Assembly (NCBI GenBank): GCA_016840305.1
Contig: JAEOSP010000065.1
Span: 1-27,419, forward strand
Length of the DNA: 27,419 nucleotides
Direction of reading: 5' to 3'
From: Candidatus Hodarchaeota archaeon
Lineage (GTDB): Archaea; Asgardarchaeota; Heimdallarchaeia; Hodarchaeales; Hodarchaeaceae
This document shows, piece by piece, positions 586 to 18,096 of the stretch (position 1 is the stretch's first letter; every line of letters begins with the position of its first letter). The translations under genes and the position numbers were made by a program. Below the pieces are notes generated by a model. That model was given only the letters and a program-made list of their open reading frames with translations. It searched no databases and had not been told where the DNA came from.

Positions 586-600
586 GTCTTGGATACTGAC

Positions 601-1878
601 ATGGTAACTCTCACAAAGAAATTTTCAATCAAACCCACCGAAAAACAAGAAAATGTATTGTGGGAATTAGCAGAAACATGTCGTTTACTTTATAATCATG
701 CTTTAGGAGAACAAAAATTTCTTTATAGCTCCTATAAGTATCGAGTAACCTATATAGACCAACAAAATGCTCTCCCACAATTAAAAGAAAGGTTTCCACG
801 TTATAAACATGTATATTCCAAAGTACTACAAATGACACTTAAAAAGGTTGATGCGGCGTATAAATCATTTTTTGGACTACTGAAAAATGGAGAAACCACT
901 GCACGATCACCAAGATTTCGTGGTAAGGATTATTTCTTCCCCTTATGTTATAATCAGTCAGGATTTACTATTACATACAAAACAATTAAATTTTCCCATA
1001 AACTTCCTGAAGCTATTGAATTGATATTTTCTATACCATTTGATTTTACAAGTACGCAAGTAAAACAAGTAGAGGTATTTCAAGACCGATATGATAGACA
1101 GTTCTATGTTGCAGTGGCTTATGAACAAAAAGAACCTCAATATATGGATAATGGCTATTATCAAGCTTTTGATCTGGGAATTATAAAGCATGCTGCAGTA
1201 AATTCTTCAGGTAAGTTTCTTGAATCAACTGTCAAACGTCCAGATAAGTACTGGCAACAACATGTCCAATTATTGCAGCATCGAAGAGACCATTGCCTAA
1301 AAAATAGTCGTAGATACCGCCTTCTATGCCAACGATTACGGGGAATTCATCGAAAATGTGCTAATCAAACAAAAGATTGGCAGCACAAACAAAGTAAGAA
1401 CTTACTGCAAAACACAAAGGCGAATACCATAATAGTAGGTGATCTTTCGGTTAAGAAAATGGTTTCTAACAAGAAAAAAAATCAAAAGCATAAATATACA
1501 AAGAGTCTTAATCGCGGTGTCCAAAATACGGGTCATCTAGGTCGTTTTATCGAATTACTAACCTATAAAGCGAAATTAGTAGGTAAAAGAGTAATAGTCA
1601 TTGATGAACGGGCTACGAGCAAGACCTGCGCGTTTTGTGGGCACAAGAAAAAACAGATGGCTCTTTCTGAGCGTATCTATCGTTGTGAGATTTGTGGAAT
1701 CGCCATCGATCGTGACCAAAATTCAGCCATTAATATTATGAAACGATTCCTCTCACGTAATGCCCAGTGTACGGGCTATCAGCAGTTTATTTCTTCTGTT
1801 GATAATCTACGACAAACAATCAATGGTAAAACGAAAGTTTCCCGCCTTCCTGTTATAGTGGGTTCTGCGAACTCGTAG
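601..1878 (+). CDS. tnpB: TnpB, RNA-guided nuclease of an IS1341-type element (IS200/IS605 superfamily)
   Basis: TnpB family: omega-RNA-guided DNA nuclease, ancestor of Cas12. I start at ATG 601 (425 aa) because MVTLTKKFSIKPTEKQ fits the family N-terminus; a TTG at 589 would add four residues. The N-terminal half is the helical wedge/REC part. RuvC-I is FDLGI (D191). RuvC-II reads IIVGDLSVKKM, with Gly280 where the canonical catalytic Glu sits. VIDERATSKTC carries Glu336, the position of the alternative glutamate described for Fanzor and rearranged TnpBs. The zinc ribbon uses C343, C346, C362 and C365. RuvC-III is IDRDQNSAINI (D370/D372). Length is normal and the frame is open, so the protein is probably functional. 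No tnpA lies nearby, so the element could move only with a TnpA in trans or by TnpB-assisted retention. Confidence 0.93.
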   Translation: MVTLTKKFSIKPTEKQENVLWELAETCRLLYNHALGEQKFLYSSYKYRVTYIDQQNALPQLKERFPRYKHVYSKVLQMTLKKVDAAYKSFFGLLKNGETTARSPRFRGKDYFFPLCYNQSGFTITYKTIKFSHKLPEAIELIFSIPFDFTSTQVKQVEVFQDRYDRQFYVAVAYEQKEPQYMDNGYYQAFDLGIIKHAAVNSSGKFLESTVKRPDKYWQQHVQLLQHRRDHCLKNSRRYRLLCQRLRGIHRKCANQTKDWQHKQSKNLLQNTKANTIIVGDLSVKKMVSNKKKNQKHKYTKSLNRGVQNTGHLGRFIELLTYKAKLVGKRVIVIDERATSKTCAFCGHKKKQMALSERIYRCEICGIAIDRDQNSAINIMKRFLSRNAQCTGYQQFISSVDNLRQTINGKTKVSRLPVIVGSANS

Positions 1879-3813: not shown

Positions 3814-4362
3814 TTATATTTTGAATGTCGCAACAGGATGAGTCACACATCCCCTATCCGGCTGATCAGAACAAACAGAGTTTGAACTGAGCTTAGGGAC
3901 TACTTTTTCATCAAAAGGTAAACGATGAAGAATATTAATGGCAGCATTATGATCCGCGTTAAGACGAAGACCACAAGAACTGCAAAGATATAAACCACGT
4001 GATTTACGATTATTTTTTTTCATAATTCCACAACCACTACATTGTTGAGAAGTATACGCCTCTGATACAAGAACAACGGTAATACCCACCATTTTTGCTT
4101 TATATTCCAGCATATGAAGCAATTTATAGAAGGGTATTTGGACAAATGATTGGTTCGTACGCTTTCCTAGGTTGCAATGTCGTTTCCAGCGCGCATTGTA
4201 ACCGATGACAATCGTACTAATATTTTTCTGCAAACAATGGTTGATAATGATTCTAGAGGTTTGATGGAAAAAATCTCTGATCTTATCTGCCCGTACACGA
4301 TGCATCTGTAATATTTTGTTCGTGGTGTGCTGTTGATTATGTTTTTTTGCTCGCATTCCCAC
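3814..4362 (-). pseudogene. 5'-truncated tnpB, C-terminal half only
   Basis: The open frame encodes only the last 182 residues of a TnpB. It starts in the helix before RuvC-II and keeps TIVIGYNARWKR (Gly at the canonical Glu position), VSEAYTSQQC with the alternative glutamate, a four-Cys zinc ribbon (CSGC and CSSC), and RuvC-III LNADHNAAINIL. The wedge/REC region and RuvC-I, roughly 200 residues, are absent, and no upstream sequence restores them. A TTCAC-type right end with a stable hairpin is not evident beyond the stop. It belongs to the same lineage as the remnant at 121-303. The remaining frame is intact, so truncation may be fairly recent, or a short product may still be made. Confidence 0.85.
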
Positions 4363-4656: not shown

Positions 4657-5346
4657 ATGAGCATTGATGTTAAATCCCTCTCAGTATTAATTGACTCCAT
4701 TGTTGAGCTTGGAGCTAAGATTTGTGTCCTTTCTGATAAGTCTGGGCTTTCAATGGTGACGCGTTCTAATTTAGATAAAGAGGATGTCGAGGTTGCTTTA
4801 AGTGCTCTTAGTAGTTTAGTTATTCCCACAGGTGATGCAATTGCAAGAGAGTTAGAGGGTAATTTTGTTAATATGACTGTCCGAACCACGGGTGGATTAC
4901 TGTTATCAACTGTTATTGATTCAAATCCCCAAGTTGTTTTAACCGCTATAGTTGATGAAAATTTGGAAGCAACGATTACACATGAAATGAAGAGATTACA
5001 ACCCATTATTTCCAATGCGATCGAAGGAATAGCTGTTGAAATTAAGGAAAGAAAACGATTTGATATCCCAAATCAGAGACAAATCACAATTTTTTTCGAC
5101 TCTCTACAAGAGAAAATAAAACAAGCTGTCACCCCTCAAGATTTAGTGAGTATTATGCGTGGTGCCAAGGATGATCTTTACACTCTAGTAAACTCAGGTA
5201 CTATATCATATGAAATGAATCGTTACGTTTTGAAACTACAAAAGGATGTGCAAAATAAATCTCCTAATCCAGAGTTCATGGGGAAAATCAAAAAAGACAT
5301 CGCTGGTTCAATAGCTGACTGGAAAGTCAGACTAAATGCTAATTAA
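4657..5346 (+). CDS. Roadblock/LC7-like domain protein with helical C-terminal extension
   Basis: 229 aa, soluble, no signal peptide. Residues 1-120 have the Roadblock/LC7 pattern: a first helix, a strand ICVLSDKSGLSMVTRS, a long second helix (about 42-65), strands NFVNMTVRTTGGLLLSTVI and QVVLTAIVDE, and a last helix. Roadblock domains dimerise and serve as scaffolds or regulators of small Ras-like GTPases; Asgard archaea carry many. Residues 120-229 form a charged helical extension not found in minimal Roadblock proteins, possibly for binding a partner. The start is fixed by GAGG at 4645-4648. It stands alone: no GTPase gene lies in this window. The fold assignment comes from pattern reading; the partner is unknown. 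Confidence 0.7.
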   Translation: MSIDVKSLSVLIDSIVELGAKICVLSDKSGLSMVTRSNLDKEDVEVALSALSSLVIPTGDAIARELEGNFVNMTVRTTGGLLLSTVIDSNPQVVLTAIVDENLEATITHEMKRLQPIISNAIEGIAVEIKERKRFDIPNQRQITIFFDSLQEKIKQAVTPQDLVSIMRGAKDDLYTLVNSGTISYEMNRYVLKLQKDVQNKSPNPEFMGKIKKDIAGSIADWKVRLNAN

Positions 5347-5714
5347 ATTGTTTAAGATTAAGACAATTCCTCAATTAGCAATCCACGTTGAGAAAAGTTG
5401 GTAAATGGAAAAAACTCTTTTTTTAGTTTCTACTACTCACAAAAATTATGAAATTGAATACTTACTCAACCACTGAAATGATGCCTTCACGCAATATTGG
5501 AACATCATTACCATTCATGATAGGTCGTTTGAACTCCCATAATTTTTCATCGGTCTCATTAACATTTTCTAGAAGCGACTTCATCCGTAGTTATAATGAA
5601 AATTTTTCATCTAAATATATAGCTCCTCTCACCTATTATTCCATATAGGAAAACGAACATTACTAAATAAAAAAAGGAAACAGTCGGTTTTATTTTACAA
5701 AAAACGGGAATCAG

Positions 5715-5736
5715 AAATATAAGAAAACTTATATTT
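5715..5736. repeat. perfect 9-bp inverted repeat (hairpin)
   Basis: AAATATAAG, loop AAAA, CTTATATTT. The stem is perfect but entirely AT-rich apart from one G:C pair. It could be a TATA-containing operator, a terminator-like hairpin, or part of a small RNA together with the next inverted repeat. Confidence 0.5.
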
Positions 5737-5760
5737 GAAGAAGTGTAAGACTCATATAAG

Positions 5761-5823
5761 AAAGGAAAGGCTTACTGTTCTTTATCCTCGTTAACGCAAG
5801 GTTATAGCAAACCGCCTTCCTTT
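5761..5823. ncRNA. possible structured RNA closed by a 10-bp stem
   Basis: AAAGGAAAGGC at 5761-5771 can pair with GCCTTCCTTT at 5814-5823, giving ten base pairs with one bulged A. The 42-nt interior holds the small palindrome CGTTAACG and a GGTT/AACC pair. The stem is richer in G:C than its surroundings. I tested it as a tRNA: it lacks a proper T-arm, D-arm and acceptor stem. No RNA family is recognised. Confidence 0.3.
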
Positions 5824-6058
5824 CACCTTTTCTCAATTTTTTCTTATTGTTTTATTTATTTCAATCCTCGATTTCCACTTTGATTCATCGACTCGATTTT
5901 GTATTCATACTTCATCATAATTTATACAATTGTATAAGCTTCCCTCGTATCTGATTCCTAGAAGTTCGCTAGAATTTCAAATCAATCTTAAAATTAGGAT
6001 TGTCAAAATATCCTTTTAAGTAAATGGTTCTTATAAAAAGTAAAAAAAAGGATTTATC

Positions 6059-6754
6059 TCAAGCAGCGGTAAGCCCTTGAAGAAAATTCATAATAGACCC
6101 TGCATTATCAGCACTTTCCTTTTGTATACCGCAGTTGTTACAAATGGAATATTTTAGCTTATGACTTTTCTCCCAATAACGAATTTGATAACTCCCCTGC
6201 ATGAAATTACCTCCACATTCACATTTATCTGAAGAATCCTCTGTAAATTTCTGATCTATTAAGCGTACCTGTGCTATAGCCTTCCTTAGATAAATCGTTG
6301 GTTCCCCAATTTTATGAATCGAAGCGGATTCGAACCGTGTTTCTAAAAATGTTATTTCTGTAATAAATGGAAATTCGTTTAAATAATCAAATTCTAACAG
6401 AGATGGAGTTAAAATTCCATTTGTCACAAATATAAAGTGCAGATTATCCATGTTGACACTTTTTAAACTTGTTAGACTTTCATTAAGAGCGTTATCTCCC
6501 TCAAAATGTGCTATTAAGCCCTCTGCTTCAATTACTTTTATGAAAGTTTTTTTACTCGATGTGTCAAGTGTTAGAATATCAGCAGTTTCTCCATTAATTA
6601 ATGGTAATATTGATTTAATGTCATCTCTGGATGCAAGTGGTGTCGTTGTCCGCGAAAGAGCATGATGAGCTATTCGATGACCATTAGTTTTTAAATAATC
6701 TATAATAACTCTTAGATGTAAGAATCGTGAACGTTGATCAGCAGCAGTAGCCAT
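6059..6754 (-). CDS. putative RPB5 N-terminal jaw-like protein with C-terminal zinc ribbon
   Basis: 231 aa, soluble, no database-level family recognised by me. Residues 10-157 follow the order of motifs of the eukaryotic RNA polymerase subunit RPB5 jaw domain (a restriction-endonuclease-like fold): FLHLRVIIDYLKTNGH resembles its first helix; FIKVIEAEG the central strand; SLTSLKSVNMDNLHFIFVT then LTPS resembles the RPB5 'ILVVQ..LTP' region; ITEITFLETR and then HKIGEPTIYL resemble its F-E...-EH.LVPEH..L end. The C-terminal assembly domain shared with archaeal RpoH (Rpb5) is absent. Instead residues 178-208 form a four-Cys ribbon (C178, C180, C205, C208). No PD-(D/E)xK catalytic triad is clear. 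Start ATG 6754 lies about 23 bp from TATA box centre 6777, so it is probably leaderless. Confidence 0.6.
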   Translation of the reverse strand: MATAADQRSRFLHLRVIIDYLKTNGHRIAHHALSRTTTPLASRDDIKSILPLINGETADILTLDTSSKKTFIKVIEAEGLIAHFEGDNALNESLTSLKSVNMDNLHFIFVTNGILTPSLLEFDYLNEFPFITEITFLETRFESASIHKIGEPTIYLRKAIAQVRLIDQKFTEDSSDKCECGGNFMQGSYQIRYWEKSHKLKYSICNNCGIQKESADNAGSIMNFLQGLTAA

Positions 6755-6891
6755 ATTATATCTTTTCCTATGGTTTATAAAAAAAACAAATAGTGATTTT
6801 CAGTTTAATTATTTTCACAGGGGGTTTATAAATTGAGTTAATTATTCCTGACCATAAAAGCTGTAAAGGATACAGTCTTTGAGTGCCAAAA
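6755..6891. promoter_or_regulatory. divergent promoter region with two opposed TATA boxes
   Basis: TTTATAA at 6774-6780 serves the minus-strand RPB5-like gene, with about 23 bp to its ATG. TTTATAAAT at 6825-6833 serves the plus-strand ATP-grasp-like gene, with about 60 bp to ATG 6892. Both carry a GG(G)TTTATAA-like context, and on the plus strand they look like near copies. Confidence 0.5.
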
Positions 6892-8061
6892 ATGCCATTA
6901 AGAAGCTCTATTAATCGTATATTGATAATTGGTCGAGAAGCTGGCCCTCTTGCAAAACTGATAAAAAAATTATATCCATATATGAAAATTGGATCAGTAG
7001 ATATTCTTGGAAATCTAGATACGCGAAATTCAGTAGAATCAGCATTCTCAGTTGTTAAACAAGCTTTTGGAGAATCGCTTGAAAGAATAAAAGTTAGATC
7101 AGATCTTGATTTGTTATATGAGTTAACTTTAATTATGTTAGAAGAAGTAGAATATGATATCTTAATACCCCTTACTCCTTTTAACTCCAACCCAAAATAT
7201 TTACAATTTCTATCAGATAAAATAAATTTACTTATTGTAGATTGGAATACTTTAGAAAAAACTAGCTCTCCTTGGAATTTCTTGTCTTATCTTACAAAAT
7301 TTGATCTTAATTTCTCCTCACTGGAAAATCTTAGAGAATTTGAAGAATTATCAGAGAAAAAAGGGGAAGAGGGCTTGTTTGTAACAAAAAATGGAATTCT
7401 GCATTCAGATAAAAGTATAAGCAAATCTGATTATTATCAGCTACCTGAAAAAGGATTTTTTCTTCCTATAAAAGAAATCCATTGTGCAGCTTTTTATTCA
7501 ACTCCTGCATTAATATCTAATATTGGTGTTCAAACGATCATTTCTTCCTCAAACCAGGCTTTGTTTTATAATGAACTTGAGAAAAATGCTTATATTCCGT
7601 TCAAATCGGCCCTTATATCATCTTATAGTGCAGTAATTGAAAGTCTAAGTGAAATTATTAAACAATGTCAACTTATGGGGTTTATAACAGTATATTTTGG
7701 CATTAAAGACAGTTCTATTGTTCCTATCTCCTGTAATTCTTTACTTGATGAAAAAATAGATCTTTGGAATGAAAGGAACTTGAATCATCTTATTCCACTC
7801 TTAGTTAATCCCTCTAAAAACAATTTTCTTCCGAAGACACAAATGGTTTATGGATACAAGTATCCTATCTTTGTCTCACATCCGATAAAGGTTCCTATGA
7901 TACCCAAAGAACTTGCAGGACAAAGAAATATACCAGGTGTATATTCTTCAATTGAGTATCCCGTATGCTCAATACAAAATTACTCTGATGATCTTAAGGC
8001 CCTATTTCGTCAATTAGAATTACATATTAAGCAAATTCACACGTTTCTCGCTAAATCTTGA
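6892..8061 (+). CDS. ATP-grasp-like protein, probably degenerate
   Basis: 389 aa from ATG 6892; a GTG at 6883 would add three residues. The N-terminus RILIIGREAGPLAKLIKKL followed by IGSVDILGN looks like the pre-ATP-grasp Rossmann-like domain in which a strand-turn-helix precedes D-I-L-G-N-x-D. The middle EEVEYDILIPLTPF and DYYQLPEKGFFLPIKEI segments, then a late helix and GFITVYFGIKDSSIVPISCN, resemble the ATP-grasp fold where the last strand pair normally carries Glu and Asn metal ligands (E-x-N-x-R). Here these read PISCNSLLDE, so the canonical Glu and Arg are not in place. That suggests an altered or lost ligase activity. Archaeal relatives I am reminded of are the cofactor-pathway ligases such as tyramine-glutamate ligase. 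No metabolic neighbours support a function. Confidence 0.5.
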   Translation: MPLRSSINRILIIGREAGPLAKLIKKLYPYMKIGSVDILGNLDTRNSVESAFSVVKQAFGESLERIKVRSDLDLLYELTLIMLEEVEYDILIPLTPFNSNPKYLQFLSDKINLLIVDWNTLEKTSSPWNFLSYLTKFDLNFSSLENLREFEELSEKKGEEGLFVTKNGILHSDKSISKSDYYQLPEKGFFLPIKEIHCAAFYSTPALISNIGVQTIISSSNQALFYNELEKNAYIPFKSALISSYSAVIESLSEIIKQCQLMGFITVYFGIKDSSIVPISCNSLLDEKIDLWNERNLNHLIPLLVNPSKNNFLPKTQMVYGYKYPIFVSHPIKVPMIPKELAGQRNIPGVYSSIEYPVCSIQNYSDDLKALFRQLELHIKQIHTFLAKS

Positions 8062-12740: not shown

Positions 12741-13382
12741 TTGAGCCAGAATATCCGCATCTTCAAAAAAAGATTGCAAATTTCTCAAAAGAAATGGGCT
12801 ACGATTCAAGGCCAGTCTTTGCGCACTGTAAATATGATTTTATCTATAATGTCAAGATTTAATTTGACTAAGAGGTCAGATGTTTTTTCACAGGATCTTC
12901 TTACGCGTTTTGATTCAATACCATCCCGATTAGAATTCCAATTAGCTGAAACAATTAACAAGAACATAACAGAATTGTACAATTATGTAACTCAGTTTTC
13001 AGAAGTTGTGAAAGAAATGTGGAAAATTGAAAACCAATTTCGTAAGGATTTCTTGAATTTTGCTAAGAAACGTGCTTTAGAGGATGATCAACAACAGTTC
13101 CATAATTTGGAAATTATTGATCAAGCGGAAAAAACATTTCAGGAAATAATTAGTATGTATGAAACAGAATTAGCTCTTCGAAAACAAATTATTTCGGAAA
13201 TTCAAGAATCCATTACTCCTCAACCCCATATGATTACTGCATACTTAGTATTATGGAGTTCCGAAATTTATGTTGAAACAGCAAAGATTCATGAGCTAAT
13301 TGAAGAATTTAGTTTTGTTGAGAAGATCTACGATCGATTTCAACAACCAGAATCAATTAACTCATTGCAAAATAATCGATGA
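12741..13382 (+). CDS. unknown all-helical protein with coiled-coil character
   Basis: 213 aa, almost entirely amphipathic helix, with no membrane segment. Helical stretches run from residues 6-40, 50-110 (LEFQLAETINKNITELYNYV), 115-157 and 165-205. There is no catalytic motif or metal site. The layout is that of a helical bundle or scaffold protein and I do not recognise the family. TTG 12741 is supported by AGGAG at 12726-12730 and by the upstream TATA box; no closer ATG with a ribosome binding site exists. It is divergent from the HEPN membrane protein gene and convergent with the FtsZ-like gene. Linkage to either is only positional. Confidence 0.65.
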   Translation: MSQNIRIFKKRLQISQKKWATIQGQSLRTVNMILSIMSRFNLTKRSDVFSQDLLTRFDSIPSRLEFQLAETINKNITELYNYVTQFSEVVKEMWKIENQFRKDFLNFAKKRALEDDQQQFHNLEIIDQAEKTFQEIISMYETELALRKQIISEIQESITPQPHMITAYLVLWSSEIYVETAKIHELIEEFSFVEKIYDRFQQPESINSLQNNR

Positions 13383-15062: not shown

Positions 15063-16997
15063 ATGACATTTGAAATACAAAAGAAAGAAGGCCTTGGAAG
15101 GCTAGGAACCATATCTATGGCAAAAAATTTTGAAACCCCCACTTTTCTGAATATCAGATTAAGAGAAAAACCTAAAATTATTACTGAGCTGGAGGAATTA
15201 ATGCTTCCTCACCAATCCAATGAATTACAACAAACTTTAAGCCAAGCGAATCTGTTGGATTATGATAATGATAATTCTCAGACTTTCACTAAGAATGATT
15301 ACCCTACTTGTTTTTTGTATCCACATTTACAAATACAAGGAAAATCTATTAATAAAATTAGTCACATTCAAGATTTTTTCCCAAGAGAATTTCACAATTC
15401 ATTGAAAAAGTTAGATGCTTATCACTTTATTCCATGGGACTTACCAAGTATTTTTTTAGATAATATCAATGAATATATTCAAGTCATTCAAAATTTAAAC
15501 CAGCAAGAAACAATAAATAGAAATTTAATGATCAATATTCCTTTTTCACCTGACCTTGAAAGGAATCTCGATGATTTTACATCTTTAGGTATCGGAATTG
15601 TTAGTCTAGGAGACATCTCATCGTTATTGAATCATCCTGAATATTTAATAAAATACATAACAGTAACAAAACAAAAATTTTCTCCTGATGTGATACTGTA
15701 TGCTCCTTCTGTACCTTCCTTCTATTTCCCAATCTTATCGTATTTAGGCATAGATTTATTTGACTTCACATTTTTAACTACAATTTCAACTACAGGAGAG
15801 AATCAAACTCCTGTTATTTTTGAACATGGGAACACTCATTCGGATTATATTTATACGCTTAATCGGGTCAGAAGAGCACTGAAAATAAATAAATTGAGAG
15901 ATTTAGCCCGTGTTTACGCGAATTCTTATCCACCACAAAAAACACTATTGAAAAAAATCGATCAAAAACATTCGTTGGAACAACAAACGTCTCTTTATGG
16001 AGCAGAGACTTTATATTGCACGGATGACACAGATCTCACTCGTCCAGAAGTTTCTTTGTTTAGAGAACGAGTCGCAAATCGTTTCTCTGTTCCTTCTTAT
16101 ACTCGAGGAATAATATTTCTTCCTTGTTCTGCTAGAAAACCTTATTCTCAATCGAAATCGCATGCTTCATTTAGACACGTTATCAAACGAAGTTTGAAAA
16201 GTGCACGTCATTCGGTTATGGAAATTATTCTCACAAGTCCATTGGGAGTTGTCCCTAGAGACCTTGAATATACTTTTCCAGCAGCTCATTATGATATTCC
16301 AGTTACAGGGGATTGGAGCAATGTTGAAAGGAATCATCTCGCTCAAGATCTCAGACAACTGTTATCAAAATGCTCTGATTCTACAATACTTATTGGTTAT
16401 GTAAAAGGTGCGGAAAGAGAGGTACTAAAGGCTGTATGTCTTGAACAGAATCGCAAAATTCACTTAATTGGAGAAGATATAACCTCATTAACCTCTAAAG
16501 AGGGCCTTTTTCAATTAAACCTACTTTTGAAAGAAAAATTATTAGCACTACCACGTTTAAAAGTAAATAACCAGCTGGAATTCTTACGTACCGTCTGTGA
16601 TTATCAATTCGGTCAGGGGACTGGAAATAAATTAATTCCTGATACTGTACAAATTAGAGGCAGAAAAGAGATAGGTTTACGGGTTACACTTAATGGAAAA
16701 CATCTTCTGACATTTAGAAAATCGACTGGATTATTAACACTCTCTCTCGAGGCTGCTAGACTTCTGTTTGGTCATTCTGAAAATATCGTAAAATTTGATG
16801 GAGATCATATACAAGGATCAACCATCTTTGCTAACGCAATAAAGGAAGCTCATTCAGAGATCCGTATTAATGATGAGGTTATTATTGTAAATAATGAGAA
16901 TGAGATAATTGCTACAGGCGTTGCATATCTACCAGGTAACTTGCTTGTAAGTATGAAGCACGGATTTGGTATAAAAATAAGGCAGAAGGTGAAATAA
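15063..16997 (+). CDS. arcS: archaeosine synthase ArcS (TGT-paralogue with PUA domain)
   Basis: 644 aa. In archaeosine synthesis ArcTGT places preQ0 at G15 of tRNA, then ArcS attaches lysine to the preQ0 nitrile, giving the intermediate RaSEA converts to G+. The N-terminal half is a divergent TGT-like barrel. ArcS is identified by PCSARKPYSQSKSH at 354-367, a family signature, followed by SPLGVVPRDLEYTFPAAHYD around 392-411. Residues about 570-643 are a PUA domain (VKFDGDHIQGSTIF, DEVIIVNNENEIIATGVA), which binds tRNA. This is not the transglycosylase itself: the catalytic ArcTGT motifs are missing and the ArcS motif is present. Start ATG 15063 has AGGT at 15051-15054. It is followed after one base by raSEA. 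Confidence 0.92.
   Translation: MTFEIQKKEGLGRLGTISMAKNFETPTFLNIRLREKPKIITELEELMLPHQSNELQQTLSQANLLDYDNDNSQTFTKNDYPTCFLYPHLQIQGKSINKISHIQDFFPREFHNSLKKLDAYHFIPWDLPSIFLDNINEYIQVIQNLNQQETINRNLMINIPFSPDLERNLDDFTSLGIGIVSLGDISSLLNHPEYLIKYITVTKQKFSPDVILYAPSVPSFYFPILSYLGIDLFDFTFLTTISTTGENQTPVIFEHGNTHSDYIYTLNRVRRALKINKLRDLARVYANSYPPQKTLLKKIDQKHSLEQQTSLYGAETLYCTDDTDLTRPEVSLFRERVANRFSVPSYTRGIIFLPCSARKPYSQSKSHASFRHVIKRSLKSARHSVMEIILTSPLGVVPRDLEYTFPAAHYDIPVTGDWSNVERNHLAQDLRQLLSKCSDSTILIGYVKGAEREVLKAVCLEQNRKIHLIGEDITSLTSKEGLFQLNLLLKEKLLALPRLKVNNQLEFLRTVCDYQFGQGTGNKLIPDTVQIRGRKEIGLRVTLNGKHLLTFRKSTGLLTLSLEAARLLFGHSENIVKFDGDHIQGSTIFANAIKEAHSEIRINDEVIIVNNENEIIATGVAYLPGNLLVSMKHGFGIKIRQKVK
16986..16992 (+). promoter_or_regulatory. 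ribosome binding site of raSEA inside arcS
   Basis: AAGGTGA lies in the last codons of arcS, six bases before ATG 16999. Stop and start codons are one base apart, so translation of the two subunits should be coupled. Confidence 0.7.
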
Positions 16998-16998
16998 T

Positions 16999-18096
16999 AT
17001 GGTTTACCCTAATAATAAACTGCTGACTTCGAAAATCCAGGAGATAAGGAACAAGCATCTAGCTCAGATTTCAGACAATGTTAATCCAAAGATTTGGAGC
17101 AGCGTTTCAGAAAATGAAGAGTATATAACTGTAACAATTGTTATACCTTCGAGGGGTTGTAGTTGGGCCTTAGGAGAATACGGTGGATGTTCTGTCTGTG
17201 GTTATATAAATGATTCATCACGGGATAGAGTAGTTCCAATAGAAATAATAATTAAGCATTTGACAAAATTATTAGTTGAAACAGAATATTCTAAAAAAAT
17301 AGAAGTCCAAATATTTAATTCTGGTAGCTTTTTTGATGAAAAAGATGTTTCTTCTGATTTAAGATCAAGAATTATTAGCTTAATCACCAATGTTCCAAAC
17401 GTATTCAAATTAGCTGTTGAATGTAGGACAGAATACATCATTAAAGAAAAATCTATTATTGAGGAAACAATTAAGCAGCTTAAAGGAGTTATTCTAGAGA
17501 TAGGAATAGGATTAGAAAGCTCAAATGATACCATTCTAAGGGATTGTTGGAATAAAGGTACTACACTTGAGAACTACAAAAAATCTGTAAAAATACTGCA
17601 AACACTGGGCGTGAAAATCAAAAGTTATATTTTTATAAAACCACCATTTCTTACAGAGAGAGACGCTATAAGAGACACAATCATAACTATTTCTGAGGTT
17701 GCTAAGATAGGTACTGATGTAATCTCCATTAATCCTTGCAATGTTCAGAACGGAACCCTTGTAAACGAACTTTTCCGTCAAAATAGATATCGTCCCCCCT
17801 GGTTATGGTCTGTCCTCCACATAATTCAAACAGCTACAAAGATTGCTCCTGATACAGCAATTATCTGTGATCCTTCGGCGGCAGGTAAGCTTCGAGGAGC
17901 ACATAACTGCGGAAAATGTGACAAAACAGTTTTACATTTATTGACAAAAGCAATTAACAAGGAAAAATTACCTTCTGATCTATCCCAAATATGTTCATGT
18001 TATAATAAATGGGAAATCATCATCTCGACTCCATCGGAATTTCTGAGAATAAGAAATATTGCAAAGCTTCAACGTCTCTCGTTATTACAAGAATAG
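16999..18096 (+). CDS. raSEA: RaSEA, radical SAM enzyme for archaeosine formation
   Basis: 365 aa. RaSEA is the partner of ArcS: it cleaves the lysine side chain of the preQ0-lysine tRNA intermediate by radical SAM chemistry to leave archaeosine. The sequence has a radical SAM cysteine cluster at C54, C64 and C67 (RGCSWALGEYGGCSVCGY), a CX9CX2C spacing typical of the Elp3-like TIGR01210 family rather than the standard CX3CX2C. Barrel elements include the strand LKGVILEIGIGLESSND at about 165-181 and VKIKSYIFIKPPFL near 206. A C-terminal Cys-rich segment (NCGKCDK, near 309-315, and later ICSCYN) may bind metal or an auxiliary cluster. It is cotranslated with arcS and converges on dnaJ. Confidence 0.88.
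   Translation: MVYPNNKLLTSKIQEIRNKHLAQISDNVNPKIWSSVSENEEYITVTIVIPSRGCSWALGEYGGCSVCGYINDSSRDRVVPIEIIIKHLTKLLVETEYSKKIEVQIFNSGSFFDEKDVSSDLRSRIISLITNVPNVFKLAVECRTEYIIKEKSIIEETIKQLKGVILEIGIGLESSNDTILRDCWNKGTTLENYKKSVKILQTLGVKIKSYIFIKPPFLTERDAIRDTIITISEVAKIGTDVISINPCNVQNGTLVNELFRQNRYRPPWLWSVLHIIQTATKIAPDTAIICDPSAAGKLRGAHNCGKCDKTVLHLLTKAINKEKLPSDLSQICSCYNKWEIIISTPSEFLRIRNIAKLQRLSLLQE

Follow-up and report, generated by a model that had tools for sequence, protein, structure and literature searches.

Predicted nuclease-fold proteins with a zinc ribbon in Hodarchaeales-type archaea and an RPB5-type jaw on Asgard Rpo5

Within the 27,419-nucleotide stretch of DNA analyzed here (contig JAEOSP010000065.1 of a Candidatus Hodarchaeota archaeon; hereafter, the window), a gene on the minus strand (6059..6754) encodes a 231-residue protein, P0001, which an earlier sequence-only reading had compared with the N-terminal jaw of the eukaryotic RNA polymerase subunit RPB5. 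The open reading frame is genuine and holds the segments on which that comparison was built. Its AlphaFold model (predicted local distance difference test score, pLDDT, 90.9; predicted template modeling score, pTM, 0.89) consists of a restriction-endonuclease-like domain and a zinc-ribbon-like domain. The first, delimited by model secondary structure and structural matches, spans residues 1-140 (6335..6754, minus strand), with the core elements H2-23, E27-31, H44-47, E60-63, E69-75, H88-98, E105-111, H117-120, H124-127, and E131-139 (H, helix; E, strand). The second, recognized by conserved cysteines and model strands, spans residues 171-213 (6116..6244, minus strand). The RpoH assembly domain (PF01191), already presumed missing, was not found in P0001 by Pfam searches at E values of up to 10.

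Homologues amounted to 60 proteins, P0001 included, in a single-sequence search and to 65 with a profile built from 40 members; the counts over 61 members given below leave out four short proteins (P0050, P0055, P0059, and P0060). Their named sources are Hodarchaeales or Hodarchaeota, Heimdallarchaeota, or "Promethearchaeota," with one "Thorarchaeota," and distant members (P0064 and P0065) have 38% identity. A scan of Asgard genomes covered 227 genomes, the phylum of a relative of the window's organism (G001), and placed the family in 13 of them, always in single copy and with two divergent cases (G053 and G054). A single-sequence genome scan was unproductive, and a profile scan gave eleven P0001 loci. 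The gene order of the window around P0001 is common to all eleven: the divergent neighbor (6883-8061) is kept in 11/11 and the convergent neighbor (4657-5346) in 10/11, the contig of the remaining locus (L009) ending there, while genes further away, within the extent of the loci, are mostly the same. No neighboring gene points to a pathway for P0001. Furthermore, P0001 and its relatives matched nothing above chance in Pfam, PADLOC, NCBIfam, and PHROGs except for a weak DUF7479 zinc-ribbon match, and PDB sequence searches with P0001 and with the family profile, like a scan of IMG/VR, were negative or unproductive. A role as a phage or defense protein was considered and rejected. P0001 represents a new, uncharacterized, and strongly conserved archaeal family that marks the Hodarchaeales-type Asgard lineage.

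The core of P0001 is predicted to adopt the restriction-endonuclease-like fold, that is, the core fold of the PD-(D/E)xK proteins (NucS/EndoMS, AF1548, Hjc, and Mrr), which are among its nearest known counterparts. In structural searches, RPB5 chains were among the matches, as the earlier reading would have it, but nuclease-fold proteins matched the model equally well or better. The two best matches in a viral structure library were nuclease-fold proteins (probability of 0.99 to 1.00), nuclease-fold matches agreed across two structure libraries, and the order of the elements fits this fold. The correspondence of active-site residues was drawn by aligning P0001 without gaps to the hairpin of an Asgard NucS (DILGLDRDGVLTIVEVK; L044), and thus by linear position. 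On that basis, D59 would be the catalytic Asp, K73 would replace the Glu, and residue 75 would replace the Lys of the hairpin (residues 59-75; 6530..6580, minus strand). D59, T70, and K73 are invariant in 61/61 aligned members, every one has a V, I, M, F, or Y as residue 75, and the most divergent homologue carries R at position 73. If this equivalence is right, the canonical (D/E)xK set is incomplete throughout, as the Asp is kept but the Glu and Lys positions hold a lysine and a hydrophobic residue, respectively, and the nuclease site looks altered. Further polar residues are also invariant in the 61 members (K22, N24, R27, H31, T36, R43, D45, H83, D87, H106, and E138); two extra homologues taken from genomes deviate, one at H31 and T70 and the other at N24.

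The zinc-ribbon-like domain is an addition relative to the PD-(D/E)xK nucleases. Each of C178, C180, C205, and C208 occurs in 59 of the 61 members, and together with the model strands they match the two Cys-pair knuckles on a beta-sheet that define a zinc ribbon; DUF7479 matched weakly in 31 of 40 members (best E value, 2.8e-4). Since all four cysteines are missing in P0064 and P0065, zinc is not indispensable for the family. The nuclease-like fold and the zinc-ribbon tail proposed from the sequence are both supported as predictions, and the model and its structural matches support the fallback offered at that time, a remote PD-(D/E)xK protein sharing only the fold with RPB5.

A specific kinship to the RPB5 jaw found no such support. 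The two are alike in fold class and in lacking the standard nuclease residues, yet P0001 has neither the assembly domain of RPB5 nor a detectable profile homology to it. At E values of up to 10, where HMMER filters drop most weak matches, 40 members together matched 15 Pfam families, which included neither the jaw family PF03871 nor PF04471 (Mrr_cat), and no nuclease family rose above chance. In hhalign comparisons, the N-terminal part of the family gave 0.2% against the N-terminal domain of Asgard Rpo5 (Rpo5-N, described below), 0.2% against five RPB5 jaws, and 0.2% against ten Mrr-like Asgard proteins, with 1.8% in a wrong register against eight NucS proteins; seven unrelated neighbor families, used as negative controls, gave 0.1 to 0.2%. 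The positive controls connected Rpo5-N to the RPB5 jaw (95.7%; E value, 8.8e-9), to Mrr (95.3%), and to NucS (60%), and RPB5 to Mrr (66%). The controls leave out L045, L070, and L073 (wrong frame) and L087 (long frame), and Hjc was not used (of its two loci, one had the wrong frame).

Pairwise shuffling tests of P0001 against RPB5 gave z scores of 1.1 for yeast, 0.1 for Komagataella, 0.2 for Schizosaccharomyces pombe, 0.2 for human, and 4.0 for Arabidopsis, the last from an alignment in a non-equivalent register. Median z scores against RPB5 were 0.07 to 0.87 for the P0001 family versus 4.4 to 6.1 for 16 Rpo5 jaws. The most suggestive segment, "IFV..ILTPS" in P0001 against "IFV..NITPS" in yeast RPB5, is the best local match there (z score, 1.1); at the positions of the DNA-contact motif TPSA, P117 is shared by 60/61 members, T116 by 45/61, and S118 by 21/61. 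The segments noted in the sequence-only reading are present and the fold resemblance is real, but there is no detectable profile homology and pairwise similarity is near chance.

The RPB5 jaw is usually described as a eukaryotic domain, and archaeal RpoH had been taken to consist of the C-terminal domain only. This premise is wrong for the present lineage; evidence on genes outside the window comes here from relatives of its organism. A PF03871 scan of six relatives' genomes gave no match above the cut-off; one weak match (E value, 7) fell in the Rpo5 frame and led to the observation that Rpo5 (RpoH) of these six relatives of the window's organism (L017-L022) has an N-terminal RPB5-type jaw. 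Profile scans, run separately for the two domains, matched the jaw in 122 of the 227 Asgard genomes (about half) and the assembly domain in 205; the details by genome come from the matches listed. Among these, many other Asgard genomes have Rpo5 frames of only 81 to 115 residues, and eleven of the 13 P0001-bearing genomes also have the jaw, with G052 and G053 showing no Rpo5 at all. In eleven listed genomes (G036-G046), two jaw matches stand in a row before the assembly domain, in frames of 432 to 500 residues in ten and 321 in one (e.g., L066 and L067); that both lie in one frame follows from length, and was seen directly for G036 and G043. Two genomes (G194 and G225) carry two adjoining Rpo5 genes, each with a jaw and an assembly domain (L063, L064, L068, and L069).

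Asgard jaw-bearing Rpo5 proteins are annotated as "RNA polymerase subunit H" with PF01191, often together with PF04471/PF22722, and the Mrr_cat label was thus already known from precomputed annotation. Like P0001, they have a restriction-endonuclease-like N-terminal domain, and in six hodarchaeal Rpo5 proteins the position of the Glu is basic (D34 and R48, 14 positions apart, like D59 and K73). In contrast to P0001, their jaw is fused to the assembly domain and is clearly homologous to RPB5, without detectable relation to P0001. Since the jaw is already on the Rpo5 of relatives, no stand-alone protein is needed as its source, and P0001 was rejected in that role. Small stand-alone Mrr-like Asgard proteins, in which a "KDWKR.VGV"-like stretch replaces the (D/E)xK strand (L071, L074-L077, L081, L082, L089, L094, and L097), are related by profile (95.3%) to the Rpo5 jaw and make better source candidates than P0001.

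In a tree of 25 Rpo5 and 5 RPB5 sequences, the stem leading to the eukaryotes is long (2.3 changes per column) and long branches are joined, so the tree cannot tell the source group of the eukaryotic jaw. Three proteins of set A3 that look like eukaryotic or viral RPB5 (P0155, P0156, and P0159) were excluded from sets A4 and A5, whereas P0150 and P0152 (sets A4 and A5) and P0153 (set A5) were included as Rpo5. We consider it probable that the jaw is no eukaryotic invention but an Mrr-like nuclease domain captured on Rpo5 in Asgard archaea, Hodarchaeales included, and inherited by eukaryotes; P0001 would then represent an altered nuclease fold put to use a second time, separately, in these archaea. 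According to the accessible portions of PMC1185551 and PMC551604, the RPB5 jaw is a catalytically inactive nuclease fold. No description of a jaw on Asgard Rpo5 was found in titles and abstract openings among the matches listed, which include few subscription papers or preprints and leave novelty unproven. The accessible text of PMC13257274 (2026, on archaeal polymerase subunits) does not mention it, and that of PMC10307638, PMC12395588, PMC7289017, PMC7408454, and PMC8160253 is silent as well. The presence of a real RPB5-type jaw on Asgard Rpo5 is a result worth following.

As for P0001, its fold prediction, conservation, distribution, gene order, and lack of a detectable profile relation to RPB5 are results of the present analysis; an altered site, binding, and non-cleavage are inferred. 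We lean, with measured confidence, toward a stand-alone chromosomal Hodarchaeales-type protein in which an altered nuclease-fold domain and a zinc ribbon make up what is probably a non-cleaving nucleic-acid binder and no polymerase subunit. Nucleic acid would be bound by the nuclease-type face, where D59 is kept, the Glu position is Lys or Arg, and the position of the catalytic Lys is hydrophobic. There, phosphates would take the place of the metal, held by K73 and by further basic residues that are conserved (K22, R27, and R43) or largely conserved (R35), and P0001 would bind without cutting. The zinc-ribbon-like domain, joined to the nuclease-like domain and bearing a C-terminal helix, may stabilize the protein or provide a second contact. 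The jaw role at the polymerase would be filled by the N-terminal domain of Rpo5 in genomes having one, and not by P0001.

A tentative alternative, to which we give clearly less credence, is an active nuclease of PD-(D/E)xK fold with a rearranged site (D59 with D45, D87, E138, or the invariant histidines) whose target would be some specific structure in DNA or RNA. The predicted fold and the many invariant polar residues agree with it, and there is a precedent in EndA, whose unrelated active site lies on the other side of the fold (accessible portions of PMC1185551 and PMC551604); however, lysine and a hydrophobic residue at the putative Glu and Lys positions would disfavor metal binding there.

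It is important to consider the observations that weigh against separating P0001 from the jaw. The family alignment is low in diversity (effective number of sequences, Neff, ~2.4), which limits the negative hhalign result; for the positive control, five RPB5 sequences were enough. Ten of 305 comparisons between the family and RPB5 exceeded a z score of 3 in a rerun (12/305 in the first run, the difference being shuffle noise), and four of the 61 members (z scores of 3.2 to 4.8, against Arabidopsis alone) align in a plausible register over the N-terminal helix and hairpin. Moreover, 25 of the 50 VIA-align rows are RPB5 chains, chain E of the African swine fever virus RNA polymerase ranks 2-3 in Foldseek (225 to 227 columns; TM score, ~0.3), pithovirus RPB5 ranks 3-4 in the viral structure library, and the D34/R48 spacing of hodarchaeal Rpo5 matches that in P0001. 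A true jaw relative, either a detached copy or a source, diverged past sequence recognition and acting at RNA polymerase, is nevertheless improbable; were it not for the Arabidopsis alignments of those four members, we would rate it slightly lower still. That the assigned fold is an artefact of a common arrangement and the protein has another fold is about as improbable, given the agreement of the two libraries and the fitting element order.

Other features of the window deserve mention. A conserved element (5705-5842, plus strand) lies in the gap where the genes of P0001 and at 4657-5346 converge; in it, a TATA-like box precedes a GAAAGGAAAGGC/GCCTTCCTTTC-type hairpin (about 5760-5824) in 11/11 aligned sequences (the window and ten loci, L009 being left out at its contig end); in the window, a T-rich stretch follows. 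Rfam gave no match at the gathering score for the window and six loci, and the element is possibly a small RNA gene. No tRNA was found in the window. Two genes related to transposases of the OrfB/TnpB type (PF07282 with PF01385) lie at 589-1878 (plus) and 3814-4362 (minus), the second being short. A gene with DUF5591, TGT_C2, and PUA domains, directly followed by one that matches radical SAM weakly (E value, 5.8e-5, under the curated cut-off), occupies 15063-18096; the two look like the archaeosine synthesis pair. The gene at 12741-13382 (plus) matches PF15011 ("Ribosome biogenesis protein C1orf109-like"; E value, 5.2e-9), a family named for a eukaryotic protein.

These results emphasize how loosely the nuclease fold gets reused, as P0001 shows, and its testing removed the premise of a jawless archaeal RpoH. 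Hodarchaeales-type archaea are often placed next to eukaryotes. With jaw-bearing Rpo5 in 122/227 Asgard genomes, it becomes directly testable how this domain of the nuclear RNA polymerases of eukaryotes originated.
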